The notes below the pieces were generated by a model that saw only the letters and a list, made by a program, of their open reading frames with translations, was not told the DNA's origin and did not search any database. From the NCBI RefSeq assembly GCF_034044635.1, contig NZ_JAXCLX010000002.1, positions 1-64,000 on the forward strand: a stretch of 64,000 bases of DNA, given 5' to 3'. Both the position numbers and the translations under genes were made by a program. The DNA is from Dongia rigui (lineage in GTDB: Bacteria; Pseudomonadota; Alphaproteobacteria; Dongiales; Dongiaceae). Each line of letters opens with the position of its first letter. Position 1 is the stretch's first letter. Of this stretch, positions 33,252 through 44,255 are shown piece after piece.

Positions 33252-34178
33252 ATGCTGACCGAAAGCTTCGAAGTCTTCGACGACCGTTTCCGCCGTTATG
33301 CCGGTGGCTGCGTGCATCTGGAAAAGCTCTATACCGGTTGCCGCTGGGCCGAGGGTCCGGCCTATTTCGCTGCCGGCCGCTATCTCGTCTGGTCCGACAT
33401 CCCCAATGACCGCATCATGCGCTGGGACGAGACGGATGGTTCGGTCTCCGTTTTTCGCGCACCGGCCATGAATACCAACGGCCACACTGTCGACCGCGAA
33501 GGGCGCCTGGTCTCCTGCGAGCATCGCGGTCGCTGCGTCTCACGCATCGAGCATGACGGCTCGCGCACGGTCCTGGTCTCGCATTACCAGGGCAAGAAGC
33601 TGAATTCGCCCAATGATGTCGTGGTGAAATCCGACGGCACCATCTGGTTCACCGACCCCAGCTATGGCATCGACAGCGAATATGAAGGCGATGCGGCGCC
33701 GTCTGAACTCGGCGGTGCCTGCCATGTCTATCGCTTCGACCCCGCGACCAAGGACCTCACCGCGGTCGCCACAGATTTTGAAAAGCCTAATGGGCTTGCG
33801 TTCTCGCCGGACGAGGGGCTGCTCTATGTCGCCGACACCGGTGCCACCCATGTGCCGAACGGGCCGCGCCACATTCGCCGCTTCCGTGTCAATGCCGACG
33901 GCAAATCGCTCAGTGGTGGCGAGAAATTCGCGGAATGCCAGGTAGGTTTGTTCGACGGCTTCCGCATCGATGTCCATGGCAATATCTGGACCAGCACCGG
34001 TGCCGGCGTCGATTGCTATGCCCCCGACGGCACCTTGATCGGCCGCGTGCGGGTGCCAGAAGTGGTCGCTAATGTCTGCTTCGGCGGGCCGAAGCGGAAC
34101 CGCCTGTTCATCTGTGGCACGACGTCGCTCTATGCGATCTATGTCAACACGCAAGGGGCATTGCGACCCCAGCACTGA
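33252..34178 (+). CDS. SMP-30/gluconolactonase-family lactonase
   Basis: A 308-residue six-bladed beta-propeller of the SMP-30/gluconolactonase/LRE family, metal-dependent hydrolases of sugar lactones. Expected metal ligands are Glu34 in RWAEGPAYF, Asn121 in NSPNDVVV and the Asn/Asp of KPNGLAFSPDE and YVADTG. GTIWFTDPSYGI is a strong family marker. There is no signal peptide, so it acts in the cytoplasm. The start at 33252 follows ggggaga at five bases. It is first in a region with a sugar ABC importer, which suggests hydrolysis of an imported or internally formed sugar lactone. Confidence 0.88.
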   Translation: MLTESFEVFDDRFRRYAGGCVHLEKLYTGCRWAEGPAYFAAGRYLVWSDIPNDRIMRWDETDGSVSVFRAPAMNTNGHTVDREGRLVSCEHRGRCVSRIEHDGSRTVLVSHYQGKKLNSPNDVVVKSDGTIWFTDPSYGIDSEYEGDAAPSELGGACHVYRFDPATKDLTAVATDFEKPNGLAFSPDEGLLYVADTGATHVPNGPRHIRRFRVNADGKSLSGGEKFAECQVGLFDGFRIDVHGNIWTSTGAGVDCYAPDGTLIGRVRVPEVVANVCFGGPKRNRLFICGTTSLYAIYVNTQGALRPQH

Positions 34179-34423: not shown

Positions 34424-35404
34424 ATGACCATCCGCTCGGCTTTTTCGCGCCTGGACCAGGAACGCATCGTGTTGGCGATCGCGGTCCTTGTCTTCATCAT
34501 CGCATCGGTGACCCTCAACGGGTTCCTGACGGCGGCCAATCTGGTAAATATCGTGCGCAGCGTGTCGGTGCTCGGCATCCTCGCCGTCGGCATGGCCATT
34601 GTCATCATTGGGCGCGGTATCGATCTCTCGGCCGTCGCCATCATGGCGATGTCGGTTGCCTGGTATCTGCAGATGCTGGGCGACGGCACCGCGCCCGGCC
34701 TGGCGCTGGTCATCACCCTGGGGGCCGTGCTGGCGATCGGCCTCGCCAACGGTTTCCTGGTGGCCTATGCCGATGTGCCGCCGATCTTCGTGACCTTGGC
34801 CAGCGGCGCCTTCGTCTTCGGCTTCGTGCGGTCGCAGCTTATCACCCAGGATGCCGTTCCGGTGCCGCCGCAGCATTGGATCGAACTTCTCGGTCAAACG
34901 CGCTGGCTCGGCATTCCTGTCGAAGTCTTCCTTTTTACCGCGATCGCCTTCCTTGCCTTCCTCTTCCTGCGCTTCACCAAATGGGGTCGCTACGTCTATT
35001 ACGCTGGCGACAACCCGATGGCGGCGCGCAATCTCGGCATACCGGTGCGGCCGATGCTGCTGCTGCGTTATGTGATTTCGGCCTTTATTGCCTTTACGGC
35101 CGGCATCCTCACCGCCTCCAGCCTGCTCTCGATCAATACCCGCGTCGTCAATTCGACGCTGCTCTACGATATTGTGCTCGTGGCGGTGATTGGCGGCATC
35201 GGGCTGTCGGGTGGGAAGGGCGGCATGCGCAATGTGATCGTCGGCGCCCTGCTGATCGGCATCATGCTCAATGCCATGACGATCCTCGACATTCCAAATC
35301 TCTACCAGAACCTCATCAAATCGACGATCCTGCTGGTCGCCATCATCATCGACGGTCTCCTAAACCCGCGTGACGAACAGACGGCGCAGCAGGGCGATAT
35401 TTAA
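34424..35404 (+). CDS. Sugar ABC transporter permease (RbsC-like)
   Basis: A 326-residue integral membrane protein of the branched/ribose-type permease family (about ten TM segments). Typical stretches are VGMAIVIIGRGIDLSAVAIMAMS, LANGFLVAYADVPPIFVTLASG, VYYAGDNPMAARNLGIPV and VIGGIGLSGGKGGMRNVIVGALLIGIM. It would form the channel of the importer together with the permease domain of the fusion protein at 36546. The next gene, the binding protein, begins 37 bases later. Substrate class: pentose, hexose or sugar acid; not resolvable by eye. Confidence 0.9.
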   Translation: MTIRSAFSRLDQERIVLAIAVLVFIIASVTLNGFLTAANLVNIVRSVSVLGILAVGMAIVIIGRGIDLSAVAIMAMSVAWYLQMLGDGTAPGLALVITLGAVLAIGLANGFLVAYADVPPIFVTLASGAFVFGFVRSQLITQDAVPVPPQHWIELLGQTRWLGIPVEVFLFTAIAFLAFLFLRFTKWGRYVYYAGDNPMAARNLGIPVRPMLLLRYVISAFIAFTAGILTASSLLSINTRVVNSTLLYDIVLVAVIGGIGLSGGKGGMRNVIVGALLIGIMLNAMTILDIPNLYQNLIKSTILLVAIIIDGLLNPRDEQTAQQGDI

Positions 35405-35441: not shown

Positions 35442-36473
35442 ATGTTCGGATTCAAGAAGACCTTGATTGCAGCGACGGCCTTGGCGGCCGTGGCCTTCGG
35501 CAGCGTCGCCTTCAACGACGCAGCCATGGCGCAGGAAGATCCGGGCCCCGCGGCCTATGCCGCGGCCTTGAAGGATAAGCGCGTCATCCTGGTGCCGATG
35601 GCGATGGGTTTCGACCTGGCGCAGGGCTGGGCCGCGTATCTCAAGAAGGAAGTCGAAGCCTTCGGGGGTGTGTTCGAAACGCGCGACCCGAACTGGAGCA
35701 TCGAAGCCGGCGCCCAGGCCATTACCGAGGCCATCTCGTCGGACCCGAAGCCCGCGGCACTCATCGTTCATTCGCCCGACCTCAACTCCTACGCCAAGCT
35801 GTTCAAGAAGGCGCAGAAGGAAGGCATCTATGTCATCGCCATCGACAACCCTGTGAATTACAAGGTCGATGCCTTCATCGGTTCCGATTGGGATCGCCTG
35901 GGCCAGCTTGAAGCCGAAGCGGCGATCAAGGCCTGCGGCGAGAATTCCTCGAAGCAGATCGGTCTCGTCCAGGGCGACCAGGTCAACGCCTCCAGTCTCT
36001 ATCAGTACGCCGGCATCATGAAGGTGCTGGAAAAGCATCCCGACTTCAAAGTCGTGGCCAAGCCGGATTCCAACTGGGACGCCACAACGGCCCGCAACGT
36101 GACGACGACCATGTTGCAGCAGTTCCCGGATGTCTGCGCCATCATCGATTTCTGGGATGGTGACGCGACCGGTACGGCGGCTGCGATCCGCGAAGCCGGC
36201 AAGCAGGACAAGATCGCCCTGGTGACCACCGGCGGCGGCGAGAAGGTCGATTGCGATGCGCTGGAGAACGGCACGTTCAGCGCGGTCGTGATGACCGAAC
36301 TGCACAACCAGTCGCGCGACATCAACGCGATCCTCAAATACCTGTTGCAGAGCGGTGTCGCCCCCGGCACGGCATCGACCTATATCTACACGCTGGAGCG
36401 CGCGTGGACGAAAGCCGACTTGACGCCCACCACCTGCTGGGATCTCAAGGGCCTGCAGGCGGCAGCTCAGTAA
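35442..36473 (+). CDS. Sugar ABC transporter substrate-binding protein
   Basis: A 343-residue periplasmic binding protein of the ribose/galactose (Peripla_BP_4) type. Sec signal MFGFKKTLIAATALAAVAFG..., cleavage probably after AMA at residue 30. The mature part has VILVPMAMGFDLAQGWAAYLKKE, KKAQKEGIYVIAIDNPV, FIGSDWDRLGQLEAEAA, VQGDQVNASS and ALVTTGGGEKVDCDALENGTFSAVV. The start at 35442 is preceded by aggaaagg. Four Cys in the mature protein are unusual for this family and may form disulfides. It delivers the ligand to the two permeases encoded on either side. Confidence 0.9.
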   Translation: MFGFKKTLIAATALAAVAFGSVAFNDAAMAQEDPGPAAYAAALKDKRVILVPMAMGFDLAQGWAAYLKKEVEAFGGVFETRDPNWSIEAGAQAITEAISSDPKPAALIVHSPDLNSYAKLFKKAQKEGIYVIAIDNPVNYKVDAFIGSDWDRLGQLEAEAAIKACGENSSKQIGLVQGDQVNASSLYQYAGIMKVLEKHPDFKVVAKPDSNWDATTARNVTTTMLQQFPDVCAIIDFWDGDATGTAAAIREAGKQDKIALVTTGGGEKVDCDALENGTFSAVVMTELHNQSRDINAILKYLLQSGVAPGTASTYIYTLERAWTKADLTPTTCWDLKGLQAAAQ

Positions 36474-36545: not shown

Positions 36546-38669
36546 ATGTCGGTACGGGAAACGCTGCAGCGCTGGCGCTATAACTACATCCCCGATCATC
36601 TGATCGGCGAGATCCTGACCAAGCGCTGGACAGACAGCGCGATTCCGTTCCTGGCTTTGGTGGTGACAATCGCCGCCTTCGGCACCGCCATCAACGGCTT
36701 CTTCAAGCCGGCCTCTTTAAGCGATTCCACGCGCCAGCTTGGCGAATTTTCCATCGTCGTCACCGGCCTCACCATCGTCATGCTGGGTGGCGGCATCGAT
36801 CTCTCCGTGGGGTCGATCTTTGCGCTGGCCGCCTTTGCGGCCGTGTCCTCGCTCTTCATTTTCGATTTGCCGGTCTGGGTGGCGCTGCTGTCGGCCGTCT
36901 CCGTCGGCATCGCCTTTGGCGCGCTCAATGGCTTCCTCATCGGCTATGTGCGCCTGCGCGCATTTTTGACGACCCTCGTCACCTTCATTATCGGCCGCGC
37001 CATCTATGACATCCTGGTGGTGAGCTTCGCCTCGAAGGTGCAGCTTTCCGATGTCACTTCCGATCTCTGGGACTACATCGGGGATGGCACCGTCTTCGGT
37101 ATCGCCATCAGCGTCATCGTCGCGGCGCTCATCGCACTCGTGGCACACATCGCCCTGACGCGGTCGCGGCCCGGCTGGCATATCCTCGCCGTCGGTGGAT
37201 CGCGCCGCTCGGCCCACAATGCCGGCATCAAGGTGCGCCAGACCGTCTTCATGACCTATGTCATCTCCGGCATCTGCTGCGGCATCGCAGGATTCCTTTT
37301 TGCCTGCCGCCTGAGCGGGGCAGGACCGGGAACCGGTCTCAATCTCGAGATCATGGCGCTGACAGCTGCCGTGGTGGGTGGCAACAGCCTGGGTGGCGGG
37401 CGTGGCTCGATCGTCAAGGGGTTGATGGGGGCGGTCATCGTGCTGGTGATGACGAATGGCCTGATCCGTTTGGGCTACGGCACAGGCACCAACCAGATGG
37501 TGCTGGGGCTGATGCTGGCCGTGGCCGTCACGCTGGATATCCGCTGGCTGAAGAACCGGCACAAGGTGCTGAACGAGGTCTATGTGGCGCCGATCTATCA
37601 GCGCATGGGCGACACGCAATCGGCGGAGCCGGGTTCGGGCACGCCCTATGCCCTCAACAACAATCTGGCGAAGACCGACTACATCGGCCTCGGTGAGTTG
37701 GAGGGACCGGAGGATGTCATCCTGGACGAGGACGACAACCTCTATTGTGGCACCCGCCATGGCGAGATCATTCGGTTCTTCGCGCCGGACTACAAGCGCT
37801 CGGAGGTCTTCGCCCATACCGGCGGCTTCCCGCTGGGACTTGCCTTCGACAAGGCCGGCAACCTCATCTCCTGTGTCGGCGCGATGGGGCTCTATTCGAT
37901 CTCACCCGACCGCGTGGTGACCAAGCTCACCGCCGAAACGCGGCGCAGCTGGACCTCGGTTGTCGATGACGCGCGTCTGCGCGATCCCAATGATTGCGAC
38001 GTGGCGCCGGATGGGCGCATCTTCTTCACCGATTCCACCAAGCGCTATGACGCCCATGACTGGGCGCTGGATTCGATCGAAAGCCGGCCGACAGGGCGCC
38101 TGCTTTGTTATGATCCGAAGACCGGCAAGACCACGACGCTGCTCGACAACTACCTCTACGCCAACGGCGTCTGCATCGCCCATGACGGGCAGTCGCTGTT
38201 CTTCGCCGAATCCTGGGCCTGCCGCGTCCACCGCTATTGGTTCGATGGACCCAAGGCGGGTGAGGTCGAATGCGTCATCAAGGACATGCCGGGCTACCCC
38301 GACAACATCAACCGTGCCTCGGACGGCGGCTATTGGATGGCCTGGCTTGGCATGCGCACCCCAAGCTACGATCTTTCGTTGCGGCATCCCAGCATGAGGA
38401 AACGGATGACGCGGCGCCTGCCGCAGGATGAATGGCTGTTCCCCAACATTAATACCGGCGGCATCGTCAAATTCGATGAGACCGGCAAGATCGTCGAGAC
38501 CTTGGGCGACCTCTCCGGCCTGTCGCATCCGATGGTCACCTCGATGCGCGAGCACAAGGGCTCTCTCTTCGTCGGTGGCATCCTCAACAACCGTGTTGGT
38601 CGCTTGCCGTTGCCCCATGCCAAGCCCGACTGGACCGGCATTCGCTCGTATTGGGGAGGGGCGAAATGA
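36546..38669 (+). CDS. Fusion: ABC sugar permease + strictosidine-synthase/APMAP-like lactonase
   Basis: A 707-residue two-part protein read in one uninterrupted frame. Residues 1-335 are a complete RbsC-like permease: VTGLTIVMLGGGIDLSVGSIFAL, LNGFLIGYVRLRAFLTTLVT, WHILAVGGSRRSAHNAGI and AVVGGNSLGGGRGSIVKGLMGA. After a linker (336-375), residues 376-707 form a beta-propeller like strictosidine synthase/APMAP: DPNDCDVAPDGRIFFTDST, NYLYANGVCIAHDGQSLFFAES and MPGYPDNINRASDGGYWMAW. Permeases of this class have cytoplasmic C termini, so the hydrolase domain should sit at the channel exit. The ATG follows tgggaacattc. The gene overlaps the next lactonase-like gene by four bases. Confidence 0.9.
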   Translation: MSVRETLQRWRYNYIPDHLIGEILTKRWTDSAIPFLALVVTIAAFGTAINGFFKPASLSDSTRQLGEFSIVVTGLTIVMLGGGIDLSVGSIFALAAFAAVSSLFIFDLPVWVALLSAVSVGIAFGALNGFLIGYVRLRAFLTTLVTFIIGRAIYDILVVSFASKVQLSDVTSDLWDYIGDGTVFGIAISVIVAALIALVAHIALTRSRPGWHILAVGGSRRSAHNAGIKVRQTVFMTYVISGICCGIAGFLFACRLSGAGPGTGLNLEIMALTAAVVGGNSLGGGRGSIVKGLMGAVIVLVMTNGLIRLGYGTGTNQMVLGLMLAVAVTLDIRWLKNRHKVLNEVYVAPIYQRMGDTQSAEPGSGTPYALNNNLAKTDYIGLGELEGPEDVILDEDDNLYCGTRHGEIIRFFAPDYKRSEVFAHTGGFPLGLAFDKAGNLISCVGAMGLYSISPDRVVTKLTAETRRSWTSVVDDARLRDPNDCDVAPDGRIFFTDSTKRYDAHDWALDSIESRPTGRLLCYDPKTGKTTTLLDNYLYANGVCIAHDGQSLFFAESWACRVHRYWFDGPKAGEVECVIKDMPGYPDNINRASDGGYWMAWLGMRTPSYDLSLRHPSMRKRMTRRLPQDEWLFPNINTGGIVKFDETGKIVETLGDLSGLSHPMVTSMREHKGSLFVGGILNNRVGRLPLPHAKPDWTGIRSYWGGAK

Positions 38670-39706
38670 TCTTCGATCCGATCCTCGATCTCTTCCGCGG
38701 CAAGGCGGTGACGATCGCGCCGCTCGACGGGGCTTTCCGGCCCAATACGGCGCTGGAAGAAGCGAATCTTGCCCAGGCGGTCGCGCAGCCGGACAACCTC
38801 ATCGTTCACGGCGGCCGGTTGCTGTTTTCGTCCGGCAGCGATCTGTTCACCTTCACGCCCGGCGGTACCCCCGCTATCCAGCGCAGCTTCGGCGCTCCTA
38901 TCAGCGCGCTGGCGGCATCGCCCGGCGGGCATCTGGCGGTAGCACTCGATGATGGCCAATTGTTCGTGGCCGACCGCGAGATCACATTGCCCCAAGGCGT
39001 TGCCTGTATCACCGCCATGAGCTTCGGCGATGATACGTCGCTCTATCTTTGCAACGGATCGGCGACGCATCGACCCGGCGACTGGGCGCTGGACCTCATG
39101 GAAAAGAACAGCAGCGGTTCCCTCTGGCGCCTCGACCCGGCGACCGGTGCCGCCGTCTCGCTGGCCGACAATCTCGCCTTCCCCAACGGCGTGCTGGTGG
39201 ACGGACAATCCGTCATCGTCGCCGAAAGCTGGCGGCATCGCCTGCTGCGCCTCACGGGCGGTACCGTGACGCCGCTCCTCGAAAAGCTGCCCGGCTATCC
39301 GGCGCGCCTTGCCCCGGCATCGGGCGGGGGCGCCTGGCTCAGCCTCTTTGCGCCGCGCAATCGCCTGGTGGAGTTCGTGCTGCAGGAGGACGCCTATCGC
39401 CGCGACATGATCGCCCAGGTGCCGCGACCCTATTGGATCGCGCCGAGCCTTGCATCGGGCGCCAGCTTCCTTGAACCGCTGCAATGCGGTGGCATCAAGA
39501 CCATGGGCATTCACAAGCCCTGGTCACCGTCGCGCTCCTATGGATTGGTGGCGCGCCTCGATAATGCGTTCCGCCCGGTCGCCTCCTATCACAGCCGCGC
39601 CAATGGCGCGCGCCACGGTGTCACCAGCGTTGCCGAGTATGGCGGTTACCTCTGGGTCGGATCGAAGGGCGGCAACGCCCTGCTGTCGCTGTCGCAGAAA
39701 GGATAA
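38666..39706 (+). CDS. Strictosidine-synthase/SMP-30-like beta-propeller
   Basis: A 346-residue protein, a paralogue of the C-terminal domain of the preceding fusion. Shared signatures are SLYLCNGSATHRPGDWALDLMEKNSSGSLWRLDP, LAFPNGVLVDGQSVIVAESWRHRLLRL and LPGYPARLAPASGGGAWLSLF. In the second region Asn of the fusion's PDNIN is Arg-Leu-Ala here, so metal binding or specificity may differ. No signal peptide. The ATG overlaps the upstream stop (ATGA) with ggggaggggcg as ribosome site, so it is translationally coupled. Probably another hydrolase for the imported sugar lactone. Confidence 0.83.
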   Translation: MIFDPILDLFRGKAVTIAPLDGAFRPNTALEEANLAQAVAQPDNLIVHGGRLLFSSGSDLFTFTPGGTPAIQRSFGAPISALAASPGGHLAVALDDGQLFVADREITLPQGVACITAMSFGDDTSLYLCNGSATHRPGDWALDLMEKNSSGSLWRLDPATGAAVSLADNLAFPNGVLVDGQSVIVAESWRHRLLRLTGGTVTPLLEKLPGYPARLAPASGGGAWLSLFAPRNRLVEFVLQEDAYRRDMIAQVPRPYWIAPSLASGASFLEPLQCGGIKTMGIHKPWSPSRSYGLVARLDNAFRPVASYHSRANGARHGVTSVAEYGGYLWVGSKGGNALLSLSQKG

Positions 39707-39709
39707 GAG

Positions 39710-41209
39710 ATGGATCCGATCATCGAGATGCGGCAGGTCACCAAGGCCTATCGTGGTGTGCCGGCAGTGAAGAATATTGATTTCGCGCTCATCAAGGGCG
39801 AAATCCACGCCCTGCTGGGCGAGAATGGCGCGGGCAAATCGACCCTCACCAAGGTCATGGCCGGTGTCGTCGAGGCGACGAGCGGTGAAATGCGCTATCG
39901 CGGGATGCCGGTGAAATTCGCTTCACCCAACGAGGCCCTGCAGGCCGGCATCGCCATGGTGTTCCAGGAGACGAGCCTGGTGCCCTCCATGACCGTGGCG
40001 CAGAACCTCTATCTCGGCGAGGAGAAATTCCTCAACCGCCTCCGTGGCATCTACATTTCGGCCCAGCAATTTTTGCAATCGTTGAACTTTCCGGTCGACC
40101 CCACTGCAACCGTCGAGACGCTGGGTGCAGCGAAACGCCAGATGGTCGAGATCGCCCGCGCCGTCCATCACAATGCCGAAGTCATCATCTTCGACGAGCC
40201 GACGGCGACACTGACGCCCGAGGAAAAACGCCACTTCTTTGCGCTCATGCAGCGATTGAAGGCCCGCGGCGTCTCCATCGTCTTCATCAGCCACGCGCTG
40301 GAGGAGGCGCTGGCGCATGCCGACCGCATCACCATCATGCGTGACGGCGAGCATGTCATCACCGACGACGCCAAGAACTTCGACCGCGAGAAGATCGTGC
40401 GCGCCATGGTCGGCCGCGCCCTGTCGGACGAACTCTACGGCAAGGCGCGGGATGCGGCGAAGATCCGCGCTGCCGGCAACAAGGTGCTCTCGGTCGAGGA
40501 TATCTCGATGGGTGCCGTGGTCAGGAACAACTCCTTCTCCATCTTCGAGGGCCAGATCACCGGTGTCTTCGGCTTGATCGGCTCGGGCCGCACCGAGACG
40601 TTCAAGGTCGTCTCCGGCATCTACAAGCGCAATTTCCTGCGCGGTGGCGAAGTGCATCTCGATGGCACGCCGGTGCGCTATTATGTGCCGCGCGAGGCGG
40701 TCAAGGACGGCATCGTTTATGTGACCGAGGACCGCAAGAGCGAAGGTTTCTTCGAGACCATGTCGATTGCGGAGAATCTGTTTTCGGGCTTGCTCGCCTC
40801 CGGTCGCGAGAAGAACGCCTATATTTCGATGCGCGAGATGCAGGATCTGGCGGCCGAATGGCGCTCGACGCTCAACATCAAGGCGATCAATGACAACGCG
40901 CGCGTGGTCGAGCTTTCGGGCGGCAACCAGCAGAAGGTGGTGATCGGCAAGGGCCTGGTGCAGAAGCCGCGCATCATCATCTTCGATGAACCGACGCGCG
41001 GCGTCGACGTGGGCGCCATCGCGGAAATCCACCAGCTCATCAACCGGCTGGCCGATCAGGGTCTTGCCGTGGTGGTGATCTCGTCCTATCTGCCGGAGAT
41101 CATGAACTTGTCCGACCGCATTCTGGTCTGCCGCCAGGGGCGCATCGTCGAGGAATTCTCGCCCAGCGATGCCACCGAGGAAAAGATCATGTATGCGGCG
41201 GTCCACTGA
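39710..41209 (+). CDS. Sugar ABC transporter ATP-binding protein (RbsA/MglA-like)
   Basis: A 499-residue protein with two ABC domains. The first has Walker A GENGAGKST, Walker B VIIFDEPTATLTPEE and an atypical signature (TLGAAKRQMVEIAR). The second has GLIGSGRTE, lacking the P-loop lysine as is normal for the second domain of this family, signature LSGGNQQK and FDEPTRGVDVGA. It energises the two permeases (34424 and 36546). The start follows the lactonase stop by three bases with aaggataag as ribosome site. One catalytic and one degenerate ATP site per protein is the expected arrangement. Confidence 0.92.
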   Translation: MDPIIEMRQVTKAYRGVPAVKNIDFALIKGEIHALLGENGAGKSTLTKVMAGVVEATSGEMRYRGMPVKFASPNEALQAGIAMVFQETSLVPSMTVAQNLYLGEEKFLNRLRGIYISAQQFLQSLNFPVDPTATVETLGAAKRQMVEIARAVHHNAEVIIFDEPTATLTPEEKRHFFALMQRLKARGVSIVFISHALEEALAHADRITIMRDGEHVITDDAKNFDREKIVRAMVGRALSDELYGKARDAAKIRAAGNKVLSVEDISMGAVVRNNSFSIFEGQITGVFGLIGSGRTETFKVVSGIYKRNFLRGGEVHLDGTPVRYYVPREAVKDGIVYVTEDRKSEGFFETMSIAENLFSGLLASGREKNAYISMREMQDLAAEWRSTLNIKAINDNARVVELSGGNQQKVVIGKGLVQKPRIIIFDEPTRGVDVGAIAEIHQLINRLADQGLAVVVISSYLPEIMNLSDRILVCRQGRIVEEFSPSDATEEKIMYAAVH

Positions 41210-41224
41210 CGAAGGAGTAACGCC

Positions 41225-41635
41225 ATGGCGACCTTGAAACTGCCAAGCATTGCCGAGGCAGAGAAGAATCCGGCGGTAAAGGCGGTCTATGACGACATCC
41301 GCGCCACGCGCAAATCAGATTTCATCAACAATATCTGGCGTGGCCTCGCTGGCAGTCCGGTGCTGCTGCAGCGCATCTGGGACCAGATCAAGGCGGTGAT
41401 GGCGACGCCGAGCGCCATCGACCCGCTGACCAAGGAAATGATCTACATCGCGGTCTCGACAGCGAACGGCTGCTCCTACTGCGTTCATTCCCACACAGCC
41501 GCCGCGCGTGCCAAGGGCATGACGGATGAGCAGCACACCGAGTTGATGGCGATCATCAGTCTTGCCGGGCAGACCAATCACCTGGTGACGGCGATGCAGA
41601 TCCCGCTCGATCCGGAATTCGAGGTGAAATCTTAA
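41225..41635 (+). CDS. Carboxymuconolactone decarboxylase/AhpD-like protein
   Basis: A 136-residue all-alpha protein of the CMD/AhpD family. The redox-type motif C83-SYC86-VH88 is present (NGCSYCVHSHTAAARAKGM), as in AhpD-like members, rather than the true decarboxylases that lack the CxxC. It is the last gene of the lactone/sugar transport series, 15 bases after the ATPase, with gaaggag before the ATG. It may be a peroxide- or disulfide-reducing helper; its role in sugar catabolism is unknown. Its stop TTAA is shared with modC on the other strand. Confidence 0.87.
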   Translation: MATLKLPSIAEAEKNPAVKAVYDDIRATRKSDFINNIWRGLAGSPVLLQRIWDQIKAVMATPSAIDPLTKEMIYIAVSTANGCSYCVHSHTAAARAKGMTDEQHTELMAIISLAGQTNHLVTAMQIPLDPEFEVKS

Positions 41636-42729
41636 TTCCACGTCCCGATCATGCGGCGGTCGAAGGCCACTGATTTGATCACCGCATAGACCGGTTTTCC
41701 CGGCTTGAGCGCCAGGTCGCGCGCCGATTTCGGCGTGATGCGGGCGAGGAGAGTGGCGCCCTCGCGGTCGAGACCGATATTCACCATGCCGCTTTCGTCT
41801 TCCCGCAGATCAGCAATGCGGCAGGACACGATGTTGAGCGCGCTGATATCGACCGGGCGCGCGAGGCTCAGCATCACGTCGCGCGCCTTGATCTGAACCC
41901 TGAGATGCGTGCCGATCGCGGCGCCCAGGGCCGGGATGCGCAGTTCGCCCAGTGGTGAGGCAAGAATTGTGAGCTGGTCGTCGATATCGTGTCGCGCAAT
42001 CGTCGCGTCGATAAGAGCACCGGCACCGCTTTCGTCCTGCGCGGTGAAGGGCAGCAGGTCGAGCCGGCCCAGAATCTCCGCAGCGGTGCCACTGGCAATC
42101 GACTTGCCGTCGGCGATCAACACGACCGAGCTGGCGAGGCGCGCGATTTCCGGCACCGCATGGGTGACATAAAGGATCGGCATTTCGGCCTCGTCACGCA
42201 GCCGTTCGAGATAAGGCAGGATCTCGCCCTTGCGATCCTCGTCAAGCGACGCCAGCGGCTCATCCATCAACAGCACTTCCGGGTCCGACAGCAAGGCACG
42301 GCCGATGGCGATGCGCTGCTTTTCGCCACCGGAGAGATGCAGTGGTCGCCGTTCCAGCAGATGACCGATCCCTAGCAGCGAGACGATGTGGTCGAACTGT
42401 CGCTGGTCGCGGGCCTTGTTGAAAAAGGCACCGTAATCGAGGTTCTGCTTCACCGTCAGATGCGGGAAAAGGCGAGCCTCCTGGAACACATAGCCGACGC
42501 GACGGTGATGCGGCGGCAGGTTGATGCCGCGCGCACTGTCGAAAAGAACGCGGTTGCCGATCTTGATGACGCCTGAATCGGGCCGCGTCAGCCCTGCCAC
42601 CATGTTGACCAGCGTGGTTTTGCCGGAACCGGAACGGCCGAAGAGCGCGGTGATGCCGCTCGCGCTGATGAAATCGGCGGCAATGTCGAGCGCGCCCATC
42701 TTGTGGCGCAGGGAGATCTCAACGCTCAT
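41632..42729 (-). CDS. modC: Molybdate ABC transporter ATP-binding protein
   Basis: A 365-residue ATPase. Walker A GRSGSGKTT (31-39), Q-loop VFQEARLFPHLTV, signature LSGGEKQRIAIGRALL, Walker B VLLMDEPLASLD and the switch His in YVTHA. The C-terminal part is the Mop/TOBE molybdate-binding domain (LRVQIKARDVMLSLARPVDISALNIV, TLLARITPKSARDLAL). The ATG at 42729 overlaps the modB end by 11 bases. Third gene of modABC. The nearby molybdenum hydroxylase operon is a likely consumer of the metal. Confidence 0.95.
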   Translation of the reverse strand: MSVEISLRHKMGALDIAADFISASGITALFGRSGSGKTTLVNMVAGLTRPDSGVIKIGNRVLFDSARGINLPPHHRRVGYVFQEARLFPHLTVKQNLDYGAFFNKARDQRQFDHIVSLLGIGHLLERRPLHLSGGEKQRIAIGRALLSDPEVLLMDEPLASLDEDRKGEILPYLERLRDEAEMPILYVTHAVPEIARLASSVVLIADGKSIASGTAAEILGRLDLLPFTAQDESGAGALIDATIARHDIDDQLTILASPLGELRIPALGAAIGTHLRVQIKARDVMLSLARPVDISALNIVSCRIADLREDESGMVNIGLDREGATLLARITPKSARDLALKPGKPVYAVIKSVAFDRRMIGTWN

Positions 42730-43420
42730 CGCCGATGACCTTCGCTGAAACCCGGCGCGCCAGCAGTTCGGAAAGAACCAGCGCCGCCATGGAGATGACG
42801 ATCGAGATGACGACAAGACGCATCGCCGCCGTGTCGCCGCCCGGCACATTGGTATAGGTGTAGATCGCGGTCGGAATGGTCTGCGTCTCGCCAGGGATGT
42901 TGGAGACGAAGGTGATCGTGGCGCCGAACTCGCCCAGTGCCTTGCCGAAGGACAGAATGATGCCGGCGATGATGCCGGGCAGGGCCAAGGGCAGGGTGAC
43001 GGTGATGAAAACCCAGATGGGTGGGGCACCCAGGGTAACCGCCGCCTGCTCCAGTCGCCGGTCGACCAGTTCGATGGAGAGACGAATGGCCCGCACCAGT
43101 AGCGGAAAGCCCATGATACCGGCAGCCAGTGCAGCACCCGTCCAGCGGAAGGCGAAGACGATGCCGAACCATTGATCCAGAATGGATCCCACGGGCCCTT
43201 TGCGGCCCATGACCAGGAGAAGCAGATAGCCGGTCACCACCGGCGGCAGGATGAGGGGCAGGTGAACGATTCCGTTGAGCAACGTCTTCCCCCAGAAGTC
43301 CCGTCGCGCCAAAGCCCAAGCCACCAGAAGCCCGAACGGCAGCGATGCCGCCGTGGCCACCAGGGCGATCTTCAGGCTGAGATGGATCGCAACGAGTTCT
43401 TCCGGGGTGAATGACAGCAC
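42719..43420 (-). CDS. modB: Molybdate ABC transporter permease
   Basis: A 233-residue inner-membrane permease with five TM segments. Family markers are PFGLLVAWALARRDFWGKTLLNGIVHLPLILPPVVTGYLLL near the N terminus and the cytoplasmic EAA loop KALGEFGATITFVSNIPGETQTIPTAIYT. It couples to ModC. The gene begins five bases after the modA stop and overlaps modC. Confidence 0.95.
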   Translation of the reverse strand: MLSFTPEELVAIHLSLKIALVATAASLPFGLLVAWALARRDFWGKTLLNGIVHLPLILPPVVTGYLLLLVMGRKGPVGSILDQWFGIVFAFRWTGAALAAGIMGFPLLVRAIRLSIELVDRRLEQAAVTLGAPPIWVFITVTLPLALPGIIAGIILSFGKALGEFGATITFVSNIPGETQTIPTAIYTYTNVPGGDTAAMRLVVISIVISMAALVLSELLARRVSAKVIGDER

Positions 43421-43425
43421 GAAAC

Positions 43426-44211
43426 CTACTTCAGGATTTTGAAACCTGCCTTCTCGAACAGCACCGTCGCTTCCGGGGACTTCAGGTAGGCCAGGAAGTC
43501 AGCGGCGAGCGGCGCCGTCGATCCGGTCAATTGGGCGATAGGATAGATGATCGGCTTGTGCGAGTCCTCCGGGAAAGTGTCGACCACCTTCACCTTGGGC
43601 TCGGCTGTGGCGTCGGTCTGGTAGACGATGCCCAACGGCGCTTCGCCCGAAGCGACCAGTGCCAGGGCGGCGCGAACGTTCTCGGCCTGCGCCACCTTGG
43701 GCTCGATTGCGGCCCAGGCGCCGAGCTTTTCCAGTGACGCCTTGCCGTATTTGCCGGCCGGAACCGCCTTCACATCGGCCATCGCGAGCTTCCCGTCGCC
43801 CACCGCACCGGCGAGATCGACGCCGTCGGCGATCTTCAGGGTCAATGCACTGTCCGCCGGCGCGACGAGCACCAGCGTATTGCCCAGCCAGTTGCTGCGC
43901 GTGCCGTCCTTTACCTGGCCGGCCTTTTCGACATGGTCCATCCAGTCGAGATCGGCGGAGATGAAAAGATCAGCCGGCGCACCGCCTTCGATCTGCTTGG
44001 CAAGCGCTGAGCTGCCCGCATAGGAGATGGCGATATCGCCACCCTTGGCCGCCTTGAAGGCGGCTGCGGCATCATCGAGCGGACCTTTGAGGCTCGCTGC
44101 GGCGAAGACGACGATCTTGTCGTCAGCCTTCGCGACGATGGGTGCTGCGGCGAGGGTCGAGAGGGCGAGGGCCGCGGCGATGAGTGAGCGGCGGGTCAGA
44201 AAGGCGATCAT
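43426..44211 (-). CDS. modA: Molybdate-binding periplasmic protein
   Basis: A 261-residue binding protein. Signal peptide MIAFLTRRSLIAAALALSTLAAAPIVAKA, then the ModA fold: VVFAAASLKGPLDDAAAAF, ISYAGSSALAKQIEGGAPADLFISAD, ALALVASGEAPLGIVYQTDA and YPIAQLTGS. The Ser residues of AAASL and GSSAL are expected molybdate contacts. ATG 44211 is preferred (gggaaacactcc upstream) over 44241, which would lengthen the signal. A palindromic AT-rich site lies 30-44 bases before this start. Confidence 0.93.
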   Translation of the reverse strand: MIAFLTRRSLIAAALALSTLAAAPIVAKADDKIVVFAAASLKGPLDDAAAAFKAAKGGDIAISYAGSSALAKQIEGGAPADLFISADLDWMDHVEKAGQVKDGTRSNWLGNTLVLVAPADSALTLKIADGVDLAGAVGDGKLAMADVKAVPAGKYGKASLEKLGAWAAIEPKVAQAENVRAALALVASGEAPLGIVYQTDATAEPKVKVVDTFPEDSHKPIIYPIAQLTGSTAPLAADFLAYLKSPEATVLFEKAGFKILK

Positions 44212-44240
44212 GGAGTGTTTCCCGGACTTCGTTGTGTTCA

Positions 44241-44255
44241 TTCGTATATATCGAA
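44241..44255 (-). promoter_or_regulatory. Possible molybdate-responsive operator upstream of modA
   Basis: The sequence ttcg-tatatat-cgaa is an inverted repeat with an alternating TA core, placed 30-44 bases before the preferred modA start. ModE-type Mo-boxes contain TATATA half-sites next to CG, which it resembles, but the two half-sites are compressed into one. No modE gene is in the window. It could also simply be the -10 region. Confidence 0.35.

Follow-up and report, generated by a model that had tools for sequence, protein, structure and literature searches.

A permease–propeller fusion in an RbsC-type ABC importer cassette of Dongia rigui, with a possible role in coupled uptake and ring opening

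As a rule, an ABC importer and the enzymes that process its cargo are separate proteins. An open reading frame of Dongia rigui that appears to encode both a permease and an enzyme-like propeller therefore raises the questions of whether the joining is genuine, on which side of the membrane the propeller lies and what it might do there. The frame lies in a stretch of 64,000 nucleotides (contig NZ_JAXCLX010000002.1; the window), and its features and those of the surrounding genes are collected in Table 1. The original prediction, made from the letters alone, that this one frame holds a complete permease followed by a propeller was borne out: the 707-residue frame is free of stops, carries Pfam domains of both kinds and shows both domains in an AlphaFold2 model (a monomer, as were all our models; mean pLDDT 86). 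Residues 62–327 match BPD_transp_2 with 113 bits (cut-off 26.8), and the C-terminal half matches SSL_N (367–411), SGL (396–602) and Str_synth (482–568), all above their cut-offs. Model confidence climbs through the linker, from about 67 at residues 331–350 to about 90 at residues 351–380. PERM2 is a ten-helix RbsC/CUT2-type ABC permease joined to a six-bladed SSL/SGL-type propeller, PROP1.

Table 1. Features of the cassette and of the fusion gene (positions in the window).
Feature	Position	Strand	Remarks
PERM1, RbsC-type permease without a fusion, first of the two in the cassette	34424..35404	+	BPD_transp_2, 100 bits (cut-off 26.8)
SBP	35442..36473	+	Signal-peptide-like N-terminus; Peripla_BP_4, 146 bits
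PERM2~PROP1 fusion gene	36546..38669	+	ATG start, 707 aa, no internal stops
PERM2 permease domain	36546..37580	+	Residues 1–345; 10 helices, predicted N-in/C-in (AlphaFold2, hydropathy, charge bias)
Fusion linker	37581..37661	+	Residues 346–372; invariant Y346 and P349 (alignment)
PROP1, fused propeller	37662..38666	+	Residues 373–707; SSL/SGL-type, six-bladed (Pfam, Foldseek)
E389, PROP1 metal-site residue	37710..37712	+	Conserved in 125/125
N482-D483, PROP1 metal-site pair	37989..37994	+	N or D at 482; D483 invariant
N540, PROP1 metal-site residue	38163..38165	+	Conserved in 125/125
D586-N587, PROP1 metal-site pair	38301..38306	+	Conserved in 125/125
PROP2, second propeller	38666..39706	+	Degenerate metal site; 4-nt overlap with the fusion gene; Str_synth above cut-off
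PROP2-specific conserved insertion	39452..39541	+	About residues 263–292; modelled with low confidence; candidate docking loop
NBD, double ATP-binding subunit, RbsA/AraG/XylG type	39710..41209	+	Two ABC_tran stretches
Carboxymuconolactone-decarboxylase/AhpD-like gene	41225..41635	+	PF02627; frequent accessory of the window-type subclade

If a sequencing or assembly error had merged two genes, close relatives should carry them split. We looked for this, and the full-length frame stays whole in relatives at 97%, 91% and 83% identity (genome classification assigns the 91% and 97% relatives, one an uncultured Dongia, the other a groundwater MAG, to the same genus). Each of the 80 best loci among 84,980 species genomes was matched across essentially all 707 residues, and the fusion is intact in all 125 loci that we fetched. 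Its presence in more than 80 proteobacterial species and on many complete replicons contradicts a merging error, to which we assign practically no probability; with the frame kept in relatives, in the best loci and in the sampled genomes, a pseudogene or an erroneous joining is ruled out and the fusion is confirmed as genuine. In an even draw from the class, which included the close relatives of the window, ten of 385 genomes carry it; 44 fusions are spread over 23 cassette-bearing genomes, with up to seven in one genome. On plasmids of Pantoea (a gammaproteobacterium), Paraburkholderia (a betaproteobacterium) and others it is annotated as one CDS, usually as an ‘SMP-30/gluconolactonase/LRE family protein’. 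Propellers with about 50% identity or more all lie in fusion-length frames and those with 42% or less all stand alone, no unfused intermediate of PERM2~PROP1 was seen in any sampled genome, and the fused permeases form one clade (SH-aLRT 100).

The search for the same domain pair and its synteny that had been proposed with the prediction thus returned, besides the many species, a fixed five-gene cassette. The order in the fetched loci is PERM1 – SBP – [PERM2~PROP1] – PROP2 – NBD; in this survey some places are represented by two fetched loci, and cassette labels that are missing there stem from overlapping ORF calls or contig ends. PERM1, itself of a well supported clade (SH-aLRT 100), and the SBP occupy matching positions in other loci. 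With BPD_transp_2 permeases, an ATPase chain with two ABC domains and a Peripla_BP_4 SBP in one operon, the cassette has the make-up of a CUT2/RbsC-type importer. The RbsA/AraG/XylG profiles match the NBD over its full length; its 463 bits against the NCBIfam xylose-type profile are under the equivalog cut-off, and the SBP is far under the cut-off for all NCBIfam SBP equivalogs. All NCBIfam equivalogs for the cassette are under cut-off, and since these scores fall far below it, the substrate need not match that of any named system.

Immediately before the cassette (33252–34178) the window holds a third propeller gene, clearly of the SGL type (SMP-30/gluconolactonase). We rejected it as a cassette member, as among orthologous loci it was seen only in the 97% relative. 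Directly past the cassette, on the minus strand (41632–44241), lies a molybdate ModABC-like operon, read from the translations only. Elsewhere, a head-to-tail row of three complete fusion cassettes fits into about 25 kb (loci L127 and L128; G003:C25:28000-63000), and genes for HMG-CoA reductase and HMG-CoA lyase flank one of the three.

According to Foldseek, PROP1 is most similar to TGW6 and the strictosidine synthases, followed by DFPase and the RPA3624 lactonase, with a probability of 1.00 and a TM score of about 0.8 over the target length for the SSL structures; together with the Pfam matches this places it in the SSL/SGL fold. Residues E389, N/D482-D483, N540 and D586-N587, which we take from known motifs to be the metal-site positions of the PON1/DFPase type, are kept in 125 of 125 fusions, the sole variation being N or D at position 482, and they hold down to about 42% identity among these loci. 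Twenty-four free-standing relatives retain almost all of these residues, and bacterial free-standing forms have 31–41% identity to PROP1. The description of the propeller as lactonase-like thus agrees with the invariance of the residues expected for SGL/PON-type hydrolysis, and we have moderate confidence that PROP1 hydrolyses its substrate. Strictosidine synthase itself catalyses an alkaloid condensation, and the SSL-family propellers include non-hydrolases. It is unlikely that PROP1 is a strictosidine synthase, given the retained metal site and a neighbourhood in which no alkaloid genes were seen.

When the permease was compared by sequence with solved structures, no more than two marginal matches came up, both to entries named cystinosin, and the topology was therefore judged from the model and the charge bias. 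Ten membrane helices are modelled; six precede a conserved, arginine-rich coupling loop (at about residues 203–234) and four follow it. The predicted inside loops have 0.19 K/R per residue, whereas the outside loops have 0.06, and a conserved RWLKNRHK directly follows the last permease helix. In E. coli RbsC, too, both ends are reported to be inside. The predicted helix count, the four helices past the coupling loop and the inside bias support the earlier placement of the permease C-terminus in the cytoplasm, and a cytoplasmic fused propeller is strongly indicated. It could instead be periplasmic and act before transport, the permease having an unusual number of spans: a hydrophobic anchor or signal stands at the N-terminus of each of the 24 nearest free-standing relatives, and these relatives are, judging from that, probably membrane-anchored and facing the periplasm. 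The ten modelled helices, the positive-inside bias, the RWLKNRHK motif and the lack of any export signal in the sister PROP2 all speak against such a placement, and we regard it as improbable. Nor does the fusion have the layout of the anchored SSL subfamily, with its single N-terminal anchor and its propeller outside the cytoplasm; a ten-helix permease precedes the propeller and the C-terminus is predicted to be inside. With free relatives probably anchored outside and the fusion predicted to end inside, the enzyme family has most likely changed sides through the fusion, passing from the outer face of the membrane to the inner one.

PROP2 directly follows the fusion in all 125 loci, with a 4-nt overlap in 100 of them (a directed check). 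A second member of the family downstream had been predicted and is there; functional equivalence does not follow, since the metal site of PROP2 has been lost. This degeneracy, like the anchored and probably periplasm-facing free relatives, had been overlooked. The metal-site positions of PROP2 mostly read D, T-A, Y or N and A-R, on which ground we do not class it as a hydrolase; the fold is kept (mean pLDDT 90 in the model), with PON1 and xylonolactonase among its neighbours. No signal peptide or membrane anchor was found in PROP2. In the tree PROP1 and PROP2 group as sisters (SH-aLRT 99), pointing to one duplication before the cassette spread. PROP2 has evolved faster, as seen from a long stem in the tree and from dN/dS values of 0.15–0.34 versus 0.03–0.20 for PROP1, which are only indicative with dS near saturation. 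It has an insertion of about 30 residues (the SGASFLEPLQCGGIKTMGIHKPWSPSRS region) with no counterpart in PROP1 or the free relatives, and few parts of the protein are as strongly conserved as the stretch where it lies; residues 271–290 have a pLDDT of 54–57. A loop that is conserved yet modelled with low confidence suggests a partner-binding site. Having no metal site and having gained a conserved loop, PROP2 is probably a non-catalytic partner, and we are moderately confident that it would dock as one.

The same features admit another function for the pair. The propellers could form a cytoplasmic regulatory or sensing module that binds substrate or product and throttles the ATPase (trans-inhibition, for which the C-terminal regulatory domains of MetN or MalK are analogues), with a structural or ligand-binding metal site. 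PROP2, without a metal site and yet strictly kept under constraint, with a conserved new loop that suggests binding, would fit this, and a domain attached to the permease could readily reach the ATPase. Known ABC regulatory domains are usually carried by the ATPase, however, and the retention of the PROP1 metal-site residues in every locus is stricter than sensing needs. We consider this function unlikely, if far from negligible.

What might be imported was approached through gene context. The cassette neighbours vary and include CoA-transferases, aldehyde, alcohol and short-chain dehydrogenases and, in Pantoea, an erythritol-type cluster. The term sugar permease is thus right for the class of transporter; for the substrate it finds no backing in neighbours concerned mostly with CoA, aldehyde and alcohol metabolism. 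A degradative HMG-CoA reductase (HMGR; TIGR00532) is found in four of the 23 cassette genomes; of these copies, three are within about 7 kb of a fusion gene, a linkage with a chance probability near one in a million by a rough hand calculation. At L128, HMGR, the cassette and HMG-CoA lyase follow each other on one strand; at L196 the order is HMGR – CoA-transferase – enoyl-CoA hydratase – cassette with a convergent HMG-CoA lyase; at L124 it is CoA-transferase – enoyl-CoA hydratase – cassette with a divergent HMGR; and in Shinella HZN7 HMGR overlaps PERM1. These four genomes split into two subclades in the tree (read without row L127a, which was cut in the wrong frame). The linkage to mevalonate genes suggests that mevalonate, mevalonolactone or a related acid or lactone, and not a sugar, is the probable cargo of the HMGR-linked cassettes; from known enzymology, anhydromevalonate would also be consistent with the enoyl-CoA hydratase and the CoA-transferase. 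The predicted lactone substrate is accordingly plausible for two subclades; for the family at large, where neighbouring pathways vary, it is a conjecture, and our confidence that the lactone is the imported form is moderate to weak. For the subclade of the window the commonest partner is the AhpD-like gene (61 loci), and its neighbours show no pathway as clear as the mevalonate set.

In other alphaproteobacteria, HMGR adjoins TRAP-like or other importer genes instead (from reading the sequences, not from a profile search). At L222 and L224 (G049 and G177) it lies directly beside apparent TRAP transporter genes, a possible alternative mevalonate importer. The genome of the window has a second fusion cassette (L126; G000:C3:506000-525000), with two SGL lactonase genes and a 3,5-dioxohexanoate-type β-keto acid cleavage enzyme (BKACE; NF053538) upstream and Zn-alcohol and aldehyde dehydrogenases downstream. 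We considered this BKACE as a sign of triacetic-acid-lactone use and rejected it: the enzyme is mostly not near the fusion, several copies are near an unfused RbsC-type permease match instead, and only at L134 is it directly upstream of PERM1. On plasmid pPAT9B04 of Pantoea sp. At-9b (L140) the cassette follows an erythritol/apionate-like gene set with a DHA-kinase-type kinase, triose-phosphate-isomerase-type and TIM-barrel proteins and lumazine synthase, suggesting transfer into Enterobacterales and perhaps a different substrate.

We find coupled uptake and ring opening to be the best explanation of this cassette, and think it somewhat likelier to be right than wrong. The importer would be an RbsC/CUT2-type ABC system with two different permease subunits, PERM2 bearing PROP1 as a putative metal-dependent SSL/SGL-type hydrolase on its cytoplasmic face and the metal-site-free PROP2 most likely docking as a non-catalytic partner. 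A substrate, probably a small lactone or ester, would be bound by the SBP; the double ATPase would drive its passage through the PERM1/PERM2 channel, and PROP1 would hydrolyse it on arrival in the cytoplasm. Hydrolysis would trap it as the open acid and feed CoA- or dehydrogenase-type catabolism; for the HMGR-linked subclades the predicted substrate is mevalonolactone or a relative such as anhydromevalonolactone. Several observations count against this explanation: the best fold matches of PROP1 are in the strictosidine-synthase branch with its non-hydrolases, the anchoring of the free relatives outside the cytoplasm points to an ancestral role in another compartment, and the pathways encoded beside the cassettes differ.

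How closely uptake and hydrolysis might be joined is a separate matter. In the tightest arrangement the cassette would encode a one-piece transport-and-hydrolyse machine, with direct handover to PROP1, the dead paralogue PROP2 paired with it at the inner gate and ring opening making import irreversible; we find this doubtful as a whole, and physical channelling from the channel into PROP1 is a weak proposition. The fusion might instead give only co-expression and a 1:1 dosage, PROP1 acting on the cytoplasmic pool without handover, which we hold to be a serious possibility although short of an even chance. The monomer models offer no structural sign of a route linking the channel to the active site, and UgpQ, the hydrolase of the Ugp system, is a separate protein in the cytoplasm (PMC5438359). 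Against mere co-localization, a single fusion clade with no unfused intermediates in the sampled genomes and an invariant Y346 and P349 in the linker argue for a fixed geometry.

No description of the permease–propeller architecture was found in the open-access papers searched. The component families are known and the genes are already in the databases; the architecture is a variant of the RbsC-type importer and not a new kind of system. As a fusion of one clade in a fixed cassette, copied up to sevenfold, it makes vectorial catabolism by an ABC importer testable with one operon, and that operon has a built-in control in the apparently active PROP1 and its inactive sister PROP2. It also provides a functional lead for genes annotated as ‘SMP-30/gluconolactonase’ or ‘hypothetical’, among them those of a candidate ABC importer for mevalonate or mevalonolactone.

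Among known systems, the RbsABC/CUT2 importers (RbsC, AraH, YtfT/YjfF) likewise combine BPD_transp_2 permeases, a Peripla_BP_4 SBP and a double ATPase, and YtfT/YjfF and LsrC/LsrD have two different permeases, as the cassette does; it differs from these importers in that one permease bears a C-terminal propeller and a second propeller is also encoded. The SSL proteins (APMAP, TGW6 and the bacterial anchored SSL proteins) belong to the same propeller family as PROP1, with the top sequence and fold matches and the SSL_N motif, but in the fusion a permease replaces the N-terminal anchor of the anchored forms and the predicted compartment is the cytoplasm. SMP-30/gluconolactonase, DFPase, PON1 and the RPA3624 lactonase have in common with PROP1 the six-bladed fold and the E / N(D) / N / D metal site, which PROP2 lacks; they are stand-alone and more distant in sequence. 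UgpBAEC, with UgpQ in the cytosol (PMC5438359), is likewise an ABC importer, and UgpQ is a dedicated hydrolase that can cut the imported substrate in the cytoplasm; UgpQ differs from PROP1 in being a separate, unrelated and unfused enzyme.
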